64,000 nt of DNA from assembly GCF_949628215.1 (NCBI RefSeq), contig NC_134288.1, forward strand, positions 10,671,682 to 10,735,681. Direction: 5' to 3'. Below the pieces are notes generated by a model. That model had not been told where the DNA came from and did not search any database. It worked only from the letters and a program-made list of their open reading frames with translations. Positions 1-47,300 of the stretch are shown piece by piece. A program made the translations under genes and the position numbers. Positions within the stretch are counted from its first letter, which is position 1; each line of letters opens with the position of its first letter. The stretch is from Phalacrocorax aristotelis. Taxonomy: Eukaryota > Chordata > Aves > Suliformes > Phalacrocoracidae.

Positions 1-104
1 TCAAGGTTTACAACGTTGGACTTTGCAACAATATTTATAACATTGAGTGATAGTGGAAATGGTGTGTGAGAGCTTGCCTTTGGCAGTATTCTGAGTGATT
101 GTAA

Positions 105-9604
<9,500 letters not shown>

Positions 9605-12178
9605 AGCATGCTGGCTTCAGCTGCGTTAGTCATCTCTGTAGGACTTGTCTGCTTACCTGCTTTTGGTGCGTTCACCCTCGCAGTGGCACAGATTTCAGAG
9701 GACAGGAGATTGGTGGTGATATGAAAGATCTTTCTTCCAGAACAAAGCGCTGCTTCCTTCTCTTCCCAGTGAATAGCGCTCTTGGCTCACACAACCCGGT
9801 CATCAGCTTCTGCAGCACATCTGAACGTTGTTGCTGGTGTCATGTAGGAGAGACGAGCAGCCTTGTGAGGCTCCGTTGGCATTTTCATTTCGATGCCTGA
9901 ATCCCCCTTGTAAATACAAGCTTTAATTAGTGCTGGTATGGATTCTGATGATTAGCAGTCCCTCTGGTTTCTTCCCTAGCATGCATTCCCATCCTGTCCT
10001 GTCCCCTTTGTGCAGTTTCTTTAGTGTTTGGCCCATCTGATGCTGGTTCCTTGTCAGCGGATCTGGTTTGCTGCTGTTTGAATACACTGAACATCCCCGG
10101 AGGAGATAAGTGGAGTTCTGCTGGGGGAAGACCAGCAGCCAAGGGGAAGGGCTGAGCTGGCCCCTCTTTTTTTAGTTTTTTGTTACAAGCCTGGTTTAGT
10201 TTGGTCTCCTCTGCTGGCAAACTGCGGCACAACTCAGAAGTATTCCTCAAACCTGAGCAGATGGAGCATTCAGTGAAATTCAAAAGTGTATTTTTAGAGA
10301 CCTTTTCCTCGATTTTTAAAATGTGTATAGTATAACCTTATTCTTTTTAGGTGTCTGATTTCATTAAGCACAGTGGTATTTTAAAGTAACGAGGCAAAAT
10401 CCAGCAATCCCTGAAGGCCCTTTTGAAGGAACAACCTTTATTTAGAGCTGTGAGAGACTGTGCACATTTACAGGGCAACTTCTTTCAGTGGGGATATTTG
10501 GGACGACTCTCTTCAAGTGCAGATGGAAAAAAGCAAATTCATGATGGGAAAAGCTTTGTGGTTGGGACCCTTTATAAGCTGTCTTCAATTTTCTACACTT
10601 GTGATCTGTATTATTTTGACCCCCAAAACCCTGACTTTCCTGTGATAGTTGAATGGAAAGCCGGGATGTCGTTCATATTAGGGTATAGCACAAGTATCCA
10701 GGTCTGTGTATGTGCATTATATAATGTACTTAGTTGGAGGACAAGAGCCCTTACCGCTTGTTTGGACAACATGTATGAAATACAGCTTGTTTTTTTGTCT
10801 CCTTATGTTCTCTTTGAATGTGGGTCTTGCCTTTTGCCTCTGACTGGGAAGAGTGGGTCTGATAGCAGAAACCTTTGAAGTTATCAGGCTCCTACCACTC
10901 TGGGAACATATCTGCCAGCGGTGGTTACACCAAGTTTTGCTACAGACTTTTGCCAAAAAGGCCGGGAAGCCTGTCTTTTAACACTGAGGTGGGAACAGCT
11001 GGTCTTGAAGCAAAAGCCTGGGGGGTTTTTTTGGTTTATAACAAACTCTTATGCTTTCTGTTGACTAGCTGGTGAAAGTGGGTGAAGCTGCATTTTCATT
11101 AAGGAGGGTGTAGATCACGGATGTCCCATGGAGTTGTAGTTTCCCAAAGGTGAGTGAGAGGTGTTGGGAGTTAAGAGGCTCTTGCCCAGAGATTTCCTGC
11201 CATGGCTGGCATCCTTCATATATGTGGGCTTAAGCAAAGGGGGAGGGAGGAGAGTTTGGGGAGGGGAATGGAGACATCACTCTTACGAAAAGGAGAGGGT
11301 AGACATATGGGAAGGGTCCATGGCTGGACAAGGATTTCAAGACTGAGCCAGAAACTGCAGGAGAAAAAAAGCTGAAAAATAGTTTTTGATGCGTGCTGTC
11401 CTTCAGCCCCTCGTGCTTCTCACATGCCTTTGCTTTTCCTCCATAATGTGAATTGTGTAAGTGCTCGGACATGGGGACTGTATCCCGCTTCTCTGGGAAG
11501 GGAACACAGCGTTTTGGTTGCTGTGGCGCTTCCTAGCGTAGTGATGTGCTTGGGAAAGCTGGGTGCAGGGGGTATGTAAATTCCTCTGCCCTGTGGTGCT
11601 CTCGCTTGGTGGCTGTGGAATTGAGACGGGGAGGGACAGTTGGGACCGCAGTGGCATGGCTTTTCTCGCTGGAGAGACTCCTGACTCGTTACAAGTGTTG
11701 GGAGCATCTTTCTTGAGCCAAATGCTGTGTGTGCACCCACTGACCAGGATCTGTGCTTCCCCTGCCCCTTGCTCAGGTGGCAGCACCACCTCCCTTCACG
11801 GTTTGTTGGGGAAGGCTACCCAAGAGCCCTGGGATTGAGAACGCGGGGGAAGGACTTGATGGGGAGTTGCGCCTTGTGGGCGGTGAAAGAAGAGTTTGTT
11901 TCCCAGCGCTGCACACAGAGGTGTGCTGGAAACCCGGGGCAAGGGGAGCAGAGCTGGGTGCTGCACCGTGTCCTCACAGCACCAGCTCCTGCTGCCACCT
12001 GCTCCTTGTGCCTGTGGCTTCCCTGTCCCTTGGCCCAGGGGGGTTACGTTGCTCGGCTTAGGGTTTTTAGATAAAAGGGGCCATCAATCTTAGAGCCTTT
12101 TAATGTTTGTAGATGTCTCTGTGTTTTTTAAATGGATTATGGCACCTACAAAGTTTAGAGCCACCAATTATAGAGCTC

Positions 12179-16231: not shown

Positions 16232-17980
16232 ATGGAGCCCTTCCCTGTGCAGATTCTCCCCCGGGCACTCTCCTGCACTGTTCTGCTCCTCCTACTCATT
16301 GCTGTGCTAAGCAGAGGGAAGAGGTGCAGCATCACCAAAATCCTCCGGCAGTACCGTGCTGTCATCTTCCATGAGATCCAGAACCTGGTGAGCTGGGACC
16401 CTGCCTCCCCACTCCGGGGAAGCTGCCAAGCTGGATGTGACCCAGCTGCGGGATGTGGGTGGGGAGGGATGAGCCTGGAAAGCTTAGCATGGGGTTGGCC
16501 ACTTTGCTGCTGTTTCCAGGGAGAACACTGTTTAAATGAGGGGTTCCTGCCCTGTGTGGGAGGGACGGATGCTTCAGGGTGCCTGATCTTCTTGCTTTAT
16601 TTCTTTAGAAAAACCTGAGTGGGTTGGAAGACAGGAGCAGAAGGTCTGGGCCAGCTTGTCGTTCTGACAAGGTGAGCACAAAGGGTTGGGCATCGTGTGA
16701 GCTGAGCCCCCGGGGAGCTATCAAGCCCCCCCCCCCCGCCTGGGGATGTGTGCTTTTCTCCTCTCCAGGACCAGAAGATCCTGCTCTCCATCTACAACAT
16801 CAGCATGTCCCTGCGGGAGGTGGCGGCTGGCACCCTGCGTGGCCCCGAGGAGCTGGCAGTGTGGAAGGTGGCCAGAAACACTGACTTCGTGCTCAGGGAA
16901 AACTGCAGGAAAATCAGCAAGGTGGGAGTCCTGCCCCTTCCCAGTCACCCCAGTGACTCCCAGTTCCCCAGCACATGGGCTGCGGGCAGAGCCTGCCCTG
17001 TTGTGCACCCTCCTGGCTGCGCATGAGGGATCTCCAGGTTCTGCCCACAGCATCCCAGGGGTGAAGGTCAGTGCTGGAGGATGCTGACAGCACGTCCCAG
17101 GGTGCTCTAAACTGGCTGGTGTGGGAAGTCTGACTGTGGCACCATGGGACAGGCTGGTGGGTTTTTACCACCAGCTCCCAAGTGGGTTTGTGCCATAATG
17201 GGAACACAGAGCCTTGTCCCGGTGGGATGGTGACCCAGTGGGTGGACACACCCAGTCTGGCTCTTGTGCCTTGGTACTTATAGGCAAGAACTGGTCTGGG
17301 CTCCCCCAGGGCTCTACTGGAGAAACCCTGGCTGGGAGGATCCCCTATAGCAGCTGCCAGCAACACATTAACTAGCAGGGAAACCCCAGCACAGTGAAAT
17401 GCCAGCTCTCCAGCTCTGCCTGGCTCCAGCGTGGTGCTGGGGTTATCCTCTCCACCATGGCCAGGGCTAACCCTGCTGGGGGTGTGCTGGTGTGGGATGG
17501 AGGTACTGCTGGTCTGGAAAGCTGCCTGCAGACGCAGCTTGGCCATCTGCCTTGCCCCCTGGATGTGCCATGAGGTGCATGCTGCCGGTGTTGGGGGGGC
17601 ATGGCCAACTCTGGGGACCCCTGGGGACCTGAGAGTACGTCCTTGCTGAGGTCCCGGGCAGTTTGGCCACCCCAACCTGCAGCTTTGTCCACACAAACCC
17701 CACGTGCATGGGGTGTGATGTCCCAGGTGCATCCTCAATGCTGGTGCGGTGGCTTTTGTCCCCCCCACTAATGCCTGTGTGGTGGTGGTGGGGTGTTTCT
17801 GCTCCCTTGGCACGCTGACCACAGAGCCCGTCGCGCATCCCAGCACAGCCCCAGCGCAGCGGACCTGGCCGCAGAAGGAAGCAGCTGCGGGAGATTGGGA
17901 GGAAGGCAGAGAAGCTGGCGACCTGCTGGGAGAAGCTCTACGCCCTGCACACACCCCGCCGTGCCCCGCGGTACTCGTAG
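16232..17980 (+). CDS. C20orf204: C20orf204 orthologue: secreted four-helix, cytokine-like protein (4 exons, 175 aa)
   Basis: Exons 16232-16387, 16609-16671, 16769-16921 and 17825-17980 have clean AG/GT borders, all introns in phase 0, and give 52+21+51+51 residues. The ATG has G at -3 and +4. Residues 1-29 are a signal peptide (hydrophobic core TVLLLLLIAVL), then RGKR (28-31), a possible furin site, just before the first cysteine. Cysteines are at 32, 69, 119 and 158; N-glycosylation sequons at N54 (NLS) and N83 (NIS). Predicted amphipathic helices: A 33-57, B 74-97, C 99-123, D 139-166. From memory, human C20orf204 shares the pattern C-S-x-x-x-x-LR-x-YRA-x-IF near the N terminus, a NL[ST] sequon, a central ILLSI, and CWEKL[YF]AL near the C terminus, with all four cysteines. 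Its position after PRPF6 agrees. The family has no established function; secretion is strongly suggested and the cytokine-like fold is my inference. No other family I know fits better. Confidence 0.88.
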
Positions 17981-18796: not shown

Positions 18797-18802
18797 AATA
18801 AA
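18797..18802 (+). terminator. C20orf204: Candidate C20orf204 poly(A) signal; 3' UTR about 17981-18825
   Basis: AATAAA lies 817 bases after the C20orf204 stop and is followed by T/GT-rich sequence (TTTTGTTTTGTGGGTGG near 18855). I saw no earlier canonical hexamer after the stop. Confidence 0.5.
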
Positions 18803-44305: not shown

Positions 44306-47300
44306 CTAACCGGTGATGCAGGGGCTATAGTAAACAGCGCTGCTGGCATCGGACAAGGCGGATATCAAGCTGCTCTCCTCGCAGGAGATGCTTCTAGGAG
44401 TCACTTTGGACAGGGAGACATGGTAAGGGAGTCCCGAGGCTTCGGGACGAGTCCTGCTCATGTTCAAATACTGGTCAAACTCATTGCGGTCAACGTCTGT
44501 CCAGAGCTCGGTTTGGTTCAAGTGATCCACGCTCTCCATATGGTGGGCTTCAGGCGGGGGCGAGAGCTGGCCCAGGTGGGCAGAAAGCCCGTTCTGAGTT
44601 CCGGAGCACATCTGGTTGTAGTATATGCTGGAAGGATGGGGAGTCCTCATGGCATCAGCCAAGTGTGATGGGGTCTGTGCATAGGGAACCGCCACGTCCC
44701 GCCCCATGCACTTCTCCTGGGGAAACTCCATCTGGTGATGGTGGTGGTAGCCGCGAAAGGGCATCATGTTGCAGTCATCCTGCATGTGCGGAGGGAAAAA
44801 CGCCGGCTCGGTCTGTTCCAAGACATCCAAGGGAGACATCTCAGGAGTTGGCAAGCCATAGTTTTCAATATCCGACCCCATGGAGTGGAGTTCTCTGAAG
44901 TGGTTAAGTGGGGGAGGCTGGGGGTGGCCCGGCTGGCTGCCGCCATGGTGACTCATGCTGAAGTTGTCACTGCAAGGCTGGGAAAGGTTATGCAGGAGGA
45001 TATTGGGTTCCATCCTCTTGATTTTCTTGGCTTGCTTCTTTCTCCTTGGGCGGTACTTGTAGTTGGGGTGATCCTGGAGATGCTGGATTCGCAGCCGCTC
45101 TGCCTCTTCCACGAAGGGACGCTTGTCACTGGCGCTCAGCGCTTTCCACGACTGGCCTGGAAGGGGAAAGTGAAGCTCTGTGACACCAGCTCGGCCACCT
45201 GGTGCTGGCTGGGGTGTGGGGGCACCTGGGGAGAGGGCACCCTTGGGTTGGGAAGGGCTCCCTTGGATGGTTTGGCACCTGAGTAGGGTCCTGGTGCTGG
45301 CACGAGGAGGAGCTGGGGAATGGGAGCCCAAGCAGGGCAGCCCCAGCAGCAGGCTCAGGCTGTGCCCAGCGCTTCAGCGCAGTGGGAGAATGGGCGTGAA
45401 AAGCCCCAGGGGGGTTCAGGAACCCCTCTGCCAGGGCAGGGGATTCTGCCTCCCGCTGCCTCTCGCACAGGCTGGTCTCTGGGGTCCCTGCTTCCCTGCT
45501 TCCCATATCCTCATCCCCGCTCCTCTGCAGCCCCAGTCACCCATCCCCAAACCCTGCACCCCGCAGCCCTGTATCCTGAATCCCATGTCCCCACACCCTG
45601 CAGCCCCGTGTCTCCGCATCCTGCTGCCCTGTCTGGCCATATCCTGCTTCCCATAGTCCCGCATCCTGCAACTCTGTCTACCCATATCCTGCTTCCCGTG
45701 TTCCCATATCCCCCATCCTATGGTCGTGTATCCCGCATCCTGCAGCCCTTTATTCCCATATCCTGCAACCCCGCAGCTGTGTACCCCACAGCCCTGTACC
45801 TCTGCATCCCGCAGCCCTATTTCCCTGCATCCTGCGTACATGTAGGTCGTATCCTCACATCCCACAACCCACAGCCCCATATTCCCACATCCCTGTAGTG
45901 CTGCACGGCACAGCCCTTGATCCCACAGCCCTTGATCATCACAGCCCATGTCCCCGCAGCCCTGCATCCTTGCAGCCTGCAGCTGAAATCCCTCGGTCCC
46001 ATAGCCTTACAGCCTGCATCCCACAGCTCTCTAACCTTACAGCCCACAGCCCTGCATTCCACACCCCATATCCCACAGCACCCTATCCCTGCATCCTGCA
46101 GCACCCCATCCTTGTAACCCAGCTCCTGCACCCCCATACGCTGGCAGTCTACATCCTGCAGCCCCGTCCTCACAGCCTGCATCCCACAGTCCTGTACCCT
46201 TGCAGCCTGGCTAGCACAACCCCATATCCTTGCAATCCGATGTTCCACTGCCTTGTACCCTTACAGCCTGCATCCCACAGCCCTGTACACTTGCAGCGCA
46301 CATGCCGATGCCGCGGACCCCCTCATCCTGCACTCCCAGCCCTGCATCCCTGCATCCCAATACCCCTTACCCCTGCAGCCCACATCTCCAGTCCCATATC
46401 CCTGCATTCTGCTGCCCTGTACCCACGCAACTCAAATCCGCAGCCCCATACCCCTGCAGCATATATCCCCAGCCCTGTAACTCTGCATCCCGCTGCCCCA
46501 TACTCCCGCAACCCACATCTCCAGCCCTGTATCCCTGCATCCCACTGCCCTGGAGTCCTGCAGCCTGCATCCCCAGCCCTGTAACTGCCTAACCCAGCCC
46601 TGCACCCCACATCCTTGCATCCCCAGCTCCACACCCCTGCATCCCTGCCTCCTCAGCTCCATACCCCCACATCCCACAGCCCTGTGCTCTTGCAGCTCAC
46701 ATCCCCAGCTCCATACCCCCGCATCCCCAGCCCCGTACCTCTGCACCCCCGCTCCCTATGCCCGCATGCCCCAGCCCTACACCCTTGCAGCCCGCTTCCC
46801 CAGCCCCGTAACCCCGCATCCCCAGACCAGTACCCCCGCACCCCTGCATCCCCTGGTCCCTATCCCTTCATCCCCTAGCCCTATGCTCTTGCAGCCCGCA
46901 TCCCCGTCTCCGTAACCCCGCACCCCCTCTCCCCCATCCCCGCACCCCCCTCCTCCCGCAGCCCGTCCCGCTCACCCAGCATCTTGCTGAGCACGGCGTT
47001 GTGCAGGTCGGGGTTCTGCTGCGCCAGCCGCTTGCGCTCATCCTTCGCCCAGACCATGAAGGCGTTCATGGGCCGGCGGATGCGGGAGTCCTCGCCGGCC
47101 TTGCCCTCGGCCCGGCCAGCCGGGGGGCTGTATCCATAGCCCGGCTCGGGGCTGGGCGTGCGGCTGGGGGCCGCGCCGGGGGCCGCGCCGCCGGGGCCGG
47201 GGCCGAAGGCGAAGCCGGGCTCGGGGCTGGGCGTGCGGCTGGCGGGGGAGGCGGCTCCCGGGGGGCGCGGGAAGGCGAGCCCGGGCTCAGCGGCCGGCAC

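Follow-up and report, generated by a model that had tools for sequence, protein, structure and literature searches.

C20orf204 as a probable genome-duplication sister of the interleukin-7 gene in the genome of Phalacrocorax aristotelis

C20orf204 is probably a whole-genome-duplication sister (ohnologue) of IL7 whose product would be a short-chain helical (class I) cytokine of the IL-7/TSLP type, secreted and N-glycosylated. We consider IL-7 its nearest relative because of sequence similarity, intron correspondence and a shared block of PKI, stathmin and TPD52 genes; since the absolute profile probabilities were low, the case for kinship rests on the agreement of these three lines. T-cell development depends centrally on signalling by IL-7, itself a drug candidate. 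C20orf204 is known in humans mainly through the cancer-associated "non-coding" RNA LINC00176. A second IL-7-like signal in vertebrates may have been overlooked. If human and bird indeed carry a duplication sister of IL-7, it would be an obvious candidate for the missing IL-7R ligand, the transcript annotated as LINC00176 would be a cytokine mRNA, and the liver-cancer "long non-coding RNA" and small nuclear protein would be recast as a cytokine gene.

The C20orf204 gene and its identity

The window, a 64,000-nucleotide stretch of NC_134288.1 (contig C13, 10671682-10735681), comes from a searched Phalacrocorax aristotelis genome of 1.28 Gb in 352 contigs. Coordinates given without a contig are window positions, and the features of the gene all lie on the + strand. 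Splicing in silico yielded a gene at C13:10.69 Mb with four coding exons of 52, 21, 51 and 51 codons followed by TAG, and three GT...AG introns, all in phase 0, reproducing the exon sizes and phases of the preliminary description. The product has 175 residues and is predicted to be of the secreted type. Exon 1 (16232..16387) encodes a predicted signal peptide, residues 1 to ≈29, and then putative helix A from C32 (16325..16327), the counterpart of human IL-7 C2 in mature numbering. Exon 2 (16609..16671) encodes the A-B loop with a sequon at N54 and with C69 (16657..16659), the fifth codon from the exon end (CRSDK) and the counterpart of human IL-7 C47 by hhalign and MAFFT. Exon 3 (16769..16921) would form helices B and C, joined by a short Arg-Gly-Pro turn, and includes the sequon at N83, T111, and C119 at the end of helix C (16904..16906), the counterpart of human IL-7 C92 by hhalign. 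The last exon (17825..17980, including the TAG) encodes a basic C-D loop and putative helix D with the motif TCWEK, in which C158 and W159 (17924..17929) are the counterparts of human IL-7 C141 and W142. A poly(A) signal, AATAAA, lies downstream at 18797..18802, and no ATTTA element was found from the stop codon onwards, between 17981 and 18900.

The mature chain contains the four cysteines previously described, C32, C69, C119 and C158, but the count does not hold for the whole precursor, which has a fifth, C15, in its leader; the two N-glycosylation sequons noted earlier, N54 and N83, were both present. By a simple -3/-1 rule, cleavage of the hydrophobic leader would be acceptable after G29, and positions 24, 27 and 35 pass the rule as well. 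Helical moments were high at ≈31–47, 106–128 and 142–161 and weaker at ≈76–98, and the helices placed earlier are plausible. No clear R-X-K/R-R site was seen in the bird sequence by eye. A genome-wide search with the gene returned its own four exon matches at E ≤ 0.001, and no second copy was found at this threshold in the same 1.28 Gb. The GC content of the window changes near 12 kb, from 0.42–0.48 (1–12000) to 0.51–0.62 (12001–64000).

The name C20orf204, proposed in the preliminary description, is supported by the order of the flanking genes, which agrees with that of human 20q13.33, PRPF6–C20orf204–SOX18–TCEA2, and by similarity to the human protein. PRPF6-family exons were found upstream, 30 kb from the gene. 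Downstream lie a SOX HMG-box coding stretch at 29 kb (46950..47120, - strand), which marks a 20q13.33-type neighbourhood and which by synteny we take to be SOX18, and a TCEA-type gene at 60 kb. When motifs of 19 expected neighbours were compared with the 64-kb window, only SOX matched (1/19). The human C20orf204 and comparison cytokine sequences used throughout are provisional reference sequences. Bird and human C20orf204 were 42% identical, 19 SD above 200 shuffles, with the four mature cysteines and TCWEK kept. The human sequence used, which is 189 residues long, contains 32 arginines and has a single sequon, at 72-74, agrees in all three numbers with the human form described in PMC7969625.

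When the 189-residue form was aligned by MAFFT, it had 22 extra residues at the site of bird intron 1, with Val first (GTN codon) and Gln last (CAA/CAG), as a retained 66-nt mini-intron would have. Exon E2b, reported to be 276 nt long (PMC7969625), would equal codons 2-93. Speculatively, the form seen in hepatoma may be the cytokine with this intron retained.

The only functional study describes the 189-residue form in liver cancer and hepatoma cells as a nuclear, nucleolin-binding protein (PMC7969625). There, it was detected in the nucleus in 14/20 primary hepatocellular carcinomas, interacted with nucleolin and rRNA, and led to more rRNA transcription upon overexpression. C20orf204 might accordingly be a nucleolar RNA- and nucleolin-binding growth promoter whose cytokine layout is incidental. 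However, the same paper shows EndoH-sensitive bands, which require that the human protein enter the ER, and its main text lacks the terms "signal peptide", "secret-" and "cytokine". In the bird, a leader and two sequons accompany cysteines and introns that resemble those of IL-7. We regard the nucleolar explanation as very improbable.

Sequence similarity to IL-7

Bird C20orf204 aligned with IL-7 well above shuffles, whereas none of the 15 other helical cytokines tested did (0/15), including GH, EPO, IL-15 and IL-21. IL-2, IL-4, IL-5 and GM-CSF, the cytokines to which the gene had been compared in the preliminary description, gave Z scores of -0.80 to 0.24 against the bird and human proteins, which is shuffle level. 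The comparison was right about the class and the phase-0 plan, but these four are not the nearest relatives.

When the two C20orf204 sequences were compared with human and mouse IL-7 by hhalign, a single alignment was obtained, covering bird precursor residues 30-163 with an E-value of 0.0025 and a probability of only 12%, and placing the four cysteines opposite C27, C72, C117 and C166 of the IL-7 precursor. Against a three-species IL-7 alignment, the score was 23.1 (probability 7%), compared to a mean of 11.0, an SD of 2.1 and a maximum of 19.7 for column-shuffled nulls (n = 300). The scores against single sequences were 25.5 for human IL-7, 25.1 for mouse IL-7, over 17 helix-D columns only, and 16.0 for bird IL-7, while the 15 other cytokines and two controls reached a maximum of 14.8. 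The hhalign probabilities for C20orf204 and IL-7 were low, ranging from 7 to 15%, and 0.7% for bird IL-7 alone.

An IL-7 HMM was then searched, with filters off, against 10,282 sequences, of which 8,082 were reported. Bird C20orf204 ranked first at 13.3 bits (E 0.033), above every reported shuffle of its own sequence (4,651 out of 5,000) and every reported window ORF (158 out of 263). Human C20orf204 ranked 52nd at 3.9 bits, with IL-4 (8.2) and a myoglobin (4.2) scoring higher; 5 of the 3,254 reported from its 5,000 shuffles scored as high. Pairwise alignment of bird C20orf204 with bird IL-7 gave P values of 1e-5 to 1e-4; four settings were used, and in each none of 1500 shuffles matched the score. 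Human C20orf204 did not match bird IL-7 significantly (P 0.13-0.26), and with the cysteines masked, the significance for bird C20orf204 against mouse IL-7 fell to P ≈0.07. These P values are uncorrected for the 18 proteins tried, and they are not blind, since the TCW motif had been noticed before testing.

The overall identity between C20orf204 and IL-7 was 18-20%. The Pfam IL7 profile (PF01415) did not match bird C20orf204 at E ≤ 10 or the human protein at E ≤ 1, and left the C20orf204 locus unmatched in the genome search; PDB searches with C20orf204 did not find cytokines. As C20orf204 falls below the PF01415 gathering cut-off, we describe it as a sister of IL-7 and not as an IL-7.

The match could in principle be due to chance or to convergence of short amphipathic helices, as single alignments reached only P ≈1e-5 to 1e-2 and some pairings were not significant. 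However, the bird score was reproduced neither by reversed or shuffled sequences nor by any other cytokine tested, and the introns and chromosome block described below are separate lines that agree with the sequence. We find this explanation hardly credible.

Intron positions and the shared chromosome block

The bird's own IL7 gene was located by a genome search with PF01415, which matched two IL7 exons on contig C2 near 135.56 Mb. Exons 2-5 were modelled at C2 135561093-135567458, with exon 2 chosen from 1,046 splice-bounded candidates as the one most similar to the N-terminus of IL-7. The joined product matched Pfam IL7 at E = 2.5e-24 over residues 3-154. The modelled mature protein has 12 cysteines, compared to six in the human IL-7 sequence. 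We rejected the idea that C20orf204 is itself the IL7 orthologue, as that orthologue lies on contig C2 and C20orf204 has no counterparts of IL-7 C34 and C129.

All three C20orf204 introns match IL7 introns in place and phase: intron 1 (221 nt, 16388..16608) corresponds to IL7 intron 2, intron 2 (97 nt, 16672..16768) to IL7 intron 3, and intron 3 (903 nt, 16922..17824) to IL7 intron 4. All of the exon boundaries compared are in phase 0. The end of C20orf204 exon 1, ...QYRAVIFHEIQNL, stands opposite that of IL7 exon 2, ...KYENILSHDINEL. The loop exon ends with a cysteine and four residues in both genes (CNDTQ in IL7, CRSDK in C20orf204), the exon for helices B and C has 51 codons in both (exon 4 of bird IL7, exon 3 of C20orf204), and the last exon has 50 codons plus stop in bird IL7 and 51 plus stop in C20orf204. 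Exon-by-exon comparison with bird IL-7 gave shuffle p values of 0.0003, 0.044, 0.024 and 0.005, and the summed score was not reached in 3000 shuffles (0/3000). With human IL-7 pieces, whose boundaries were inferred, the values were 0.002, 0.28, 0.0007 and 0.0003, again with 0/3000 for the sum; exon 2 was thus not significant against its inferred human piece.

As controls for the intron comparison, we used two PF02372 matches of the same genome on contig C4, outside the IL7/C20orf204 block, which we take to be IL-2 and IL-15. In the presumed IL-2 gene, the last exon is preceded by exons of 47, 13 and 40 codons with phase-0 edges; the 13-codon exon was picked by eye among candidates. In contrast to C20orf204, this gene lacks a cysteine in exon 2, has 40 codons in exon 3 and lacks CW in helix D. 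Its helix-B exon, exon 3, begins with cysteines (ECSWQTLQC), and that of the presumed IL-15 gene, of which two exons were read, begins with KECQEPVMRC. In these controls, cysteines thus open the helix-B exon, instead of a single one closing the exon before, as in C20orf204. Neither control aligned with C20orf204 above shuffles. The phase-0 layout is common to the class, but the intron register of C20orf204 is that of IL-7.

These results bear on the possibility that C20orf204 is a helical cytokine of another branch, of the growth hormone/prolactin, EPO or IL-2/IL-4 type, with only the fold and exon plan in common with IL-7. A study using PROST named interleukins and growth hormones as remote homologues of C20orf204, aligned it with lungfish somatotropin and proposed a somatotropin-like function (PMC9992864, PNAS 2023). 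Phase-0 plans are indeed general, as the exons of the presumed IL-2 gene illustrate. However, GH, EPO, IL-2, IL-4, IL-5, GM-CSF, IL-15, IL-21 and others scored at shuffle level and IL-7 did not, and three features match IL7 and not the IL-15-family genes on C4: a cysteine placed at the end of exon 2, the length of exon 3 (51 codons) and the CW.K of helix D. Another branch therefore seems improbable to us. A cytokine link was already in print in PMC9992864; no IL-7 link of C20orf204 or LINC00176 was found among the papers listed in the literature searches, with subscription journals and most preprints lying outside their range. PMC7176870 contains both C20orf204 and the word "cytokine".

The chromosomal surroundings provide the third line. 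Close to IL7 (C2:135.56 Mb) lie a PKI gene at 89 kb (C2:135.47), a stathmin at 0.31 Mb (C2:135.88) and a TPD52 gene at 0.51 Mb (C2:136.07), and close to C20orf204 (C13:10.69 Mb) lie a stathmin at 0.43 Mb (C13:10.26) and a TPD52 gene at 0.19 Mb (C13:10.49). The chance of a random gene lying within 0.51 Mb of another TPD52 locus is ≈0.0016, and for a distance of 0.32 Mb from another stathmin it is 0.0015; these two figures are not independent. Looser links are the PKI gene on C13 (C13:7.61), 3.1 Mb from C20orf204, and the TCEA-type gene on C2, 10.8 Mb from IL7. The gene order differs, being PKI-IL7-STMN-TPD52 on C2 and STMN-TPD52-C20orf204 on C13.

Members of the same families recur elsewhere in the genome: stathmins at C20:4.60 and C3:1.66 Mb, PKI genes at C3:57.54 and C20:2.14 Mb, a third TPD52 gene at C3:58.79 Mb, and TFIIS_M matches that were taken as TCEA-type at C2:124.79, C13:10.75 and C20:3.73 Mb. 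The TFIIS_M search also matched C1, C3:29.69 and C13:11.99, and the TCEA-type genes agree at chromosome level only. PKI, TPD52, stathmin and TCEA-type genes recur on C2, C3, C13 and C20 (TPD52 on three of these four contigs), a pattern that would be expected if the two genome duplications early in vertebrate history had quadrupled a single block. PF01415 matched no IL-7-like gene on C3 or C20. Together, the IL-7-specific similarity, the IL-7-specific intron placement and the shared duplicated block support the earlier proposal that C20orf204 belongs to the helical cytokines or is closely related to them.

Predicted fold, receptors and comparison with IL-7 and TSLP

If C20orf204 folds like IL-7, as a four-helix cytokine, exon 1 would supply the signal peptide and helix A, exon 2 a one-cysteine loop, exon 3 helices B and C, and exon 4 helix D. 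By analogy with IL-7, a C32–C119 disulfide would join the beginning of helix A with the end of helix C, C69–C158 would connect the A-B loop and helix D, and W159 would be packed in the core. The protein would then use helices A and C to engage a receptor of the IL-7Ralpha type, and helices A and D to engage a second chain (the common gamma chain or one resembling TSLPR), leading to JAK-STAT5 activation. Binding to IL-7Ralpha is a prediction that we would expect to hold or to fail with about equal probability.

The ohnologue may instead have ceased to be an IL-7R agonist and act as a decoy or antagonist, or bind a different receptor. Its far divergence from IL-7, its arginine-rich composition in human (32/189) and the loss of one IL-7 disulfide would fit such a role. 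On the other hand, a disulfide between the N-terminus and loop 3 of IL-7 was reported to support IL-7Ralpha binding (PMC12810954), and counterparts of its cysteines and of the core Trp are kept in the bird and human proteins. A non-agonist role is a possibility that we hold to be the less probable outcome.

Another IL-7R ligand has been sought in humans because IL-7 deficiency is milder than IL-7R deficiency, from which a further IL-7R-binding cytokine was argued (PMC11444196, JCI 2024). Mice lacking Tslp or Crlf2 have normal T-, B- and NK-cell counts, as cited there. C20orf204 could be a third IL-7R alpha ligand beside IL-7 and TSLP, and the proposed cytokine that allows T cells, including gamma-delta T cells, to form without IL-7 but not without IL-7R. 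However, mice need both IL-7 and IL-7R for T and B cells (PMC11444196), and a mouse C20orf204 is mentioned in PMC9992864; this dependence on IL-7 itself makes a strong second ligand in mice less likely, and we consider the identification unlikely. In M. bovis-infected cattle, the bovine C20orf204 homologue was listed third in a table of genes up-regulated in WC1.1+ gamma-delta T cells, with a log2 fold change of 22.6 (PMC10628470, Table 1), which suggests near-zero counts in the controls; the reported values in bovine blood leucocytes were low, at 0.10 and 0.28. Gamma-delta T cells also belong to the cells on which human IL-7 deficiency has little effect (PMC11444196).

The residues compare with those of IL-7 as follows. 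Invariant in a five-sequence alignment were C32, Y41, C69, L78, L88, V107, T111, C158, W159 and K161 of bird C20orf204, corresponding to C2, Y12, C47, L56, L63, V82, T86, C141, W142 and K144 of mature human IL-7. Of the four cysteine sites of IL-7 (start of helix A, before helix B, end of helix C, and helix D), hhalign matched all four and MAFFT three, placing C119 two columns off C92. Both methods put C69 opposite C53 of bird IL-7 (C47 in human), while pairwise alignments to bird IL-7 put it opposite C40 of the same exon. C20orf204 thus keeps counterparts of the N-terminal cysteine pair of IL-7, of the second pair and of the Trp. The third disulfide pair of IL-7 is C34–C129. Counterparts of these two cysteines are absent from C20orf204 on both sides, which fits the loss of one whole disulfide.

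The TCW.K motif of IL-7 helix D has its counterpart in C20orf204, and W159 aligns with W142, the core Trp of that helix; this sole Trp of IL-7 is buried in the core and linked to folding (PMC7396566). The IL7 gene has one extra intron, in the signal peptide, that C20orf204 does not have, and C20orf204 differs from IL-7 in its basic, arginine-rich C-D loop. The loop is strongly basic in bird and human C20orf204, as in TSLP (KKRRKRK), where a furin site was proposed (PMC7396566). The TSLP sequence used was confirmed as TSLP, and its numbering fits PMC7396566, which describes a core site with Trp148, Thr102 and Thr83.

Among the known systems, growth hormone (somatotropin) is the one for which a structural resemblance to C20orf204 was proposed in print (PMC9992864). 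IL-2 and IL-15 (PF00715, PF02372) resemble it in class and in the phase-0 edges of the exons read. TSLP (PF15216) shares with it a cysteine at each of two sites, where helix A starts and where helix C ends, a helix-C Thr eight residues before the second of these, a helix-D Trp and the strongly basic C-D loop. The eight-residue spacing from T111 to C119 in bird C20orf204 is the same in the human protein (T131–C139), in TSLP (T102–C110) and in bird IL-7.
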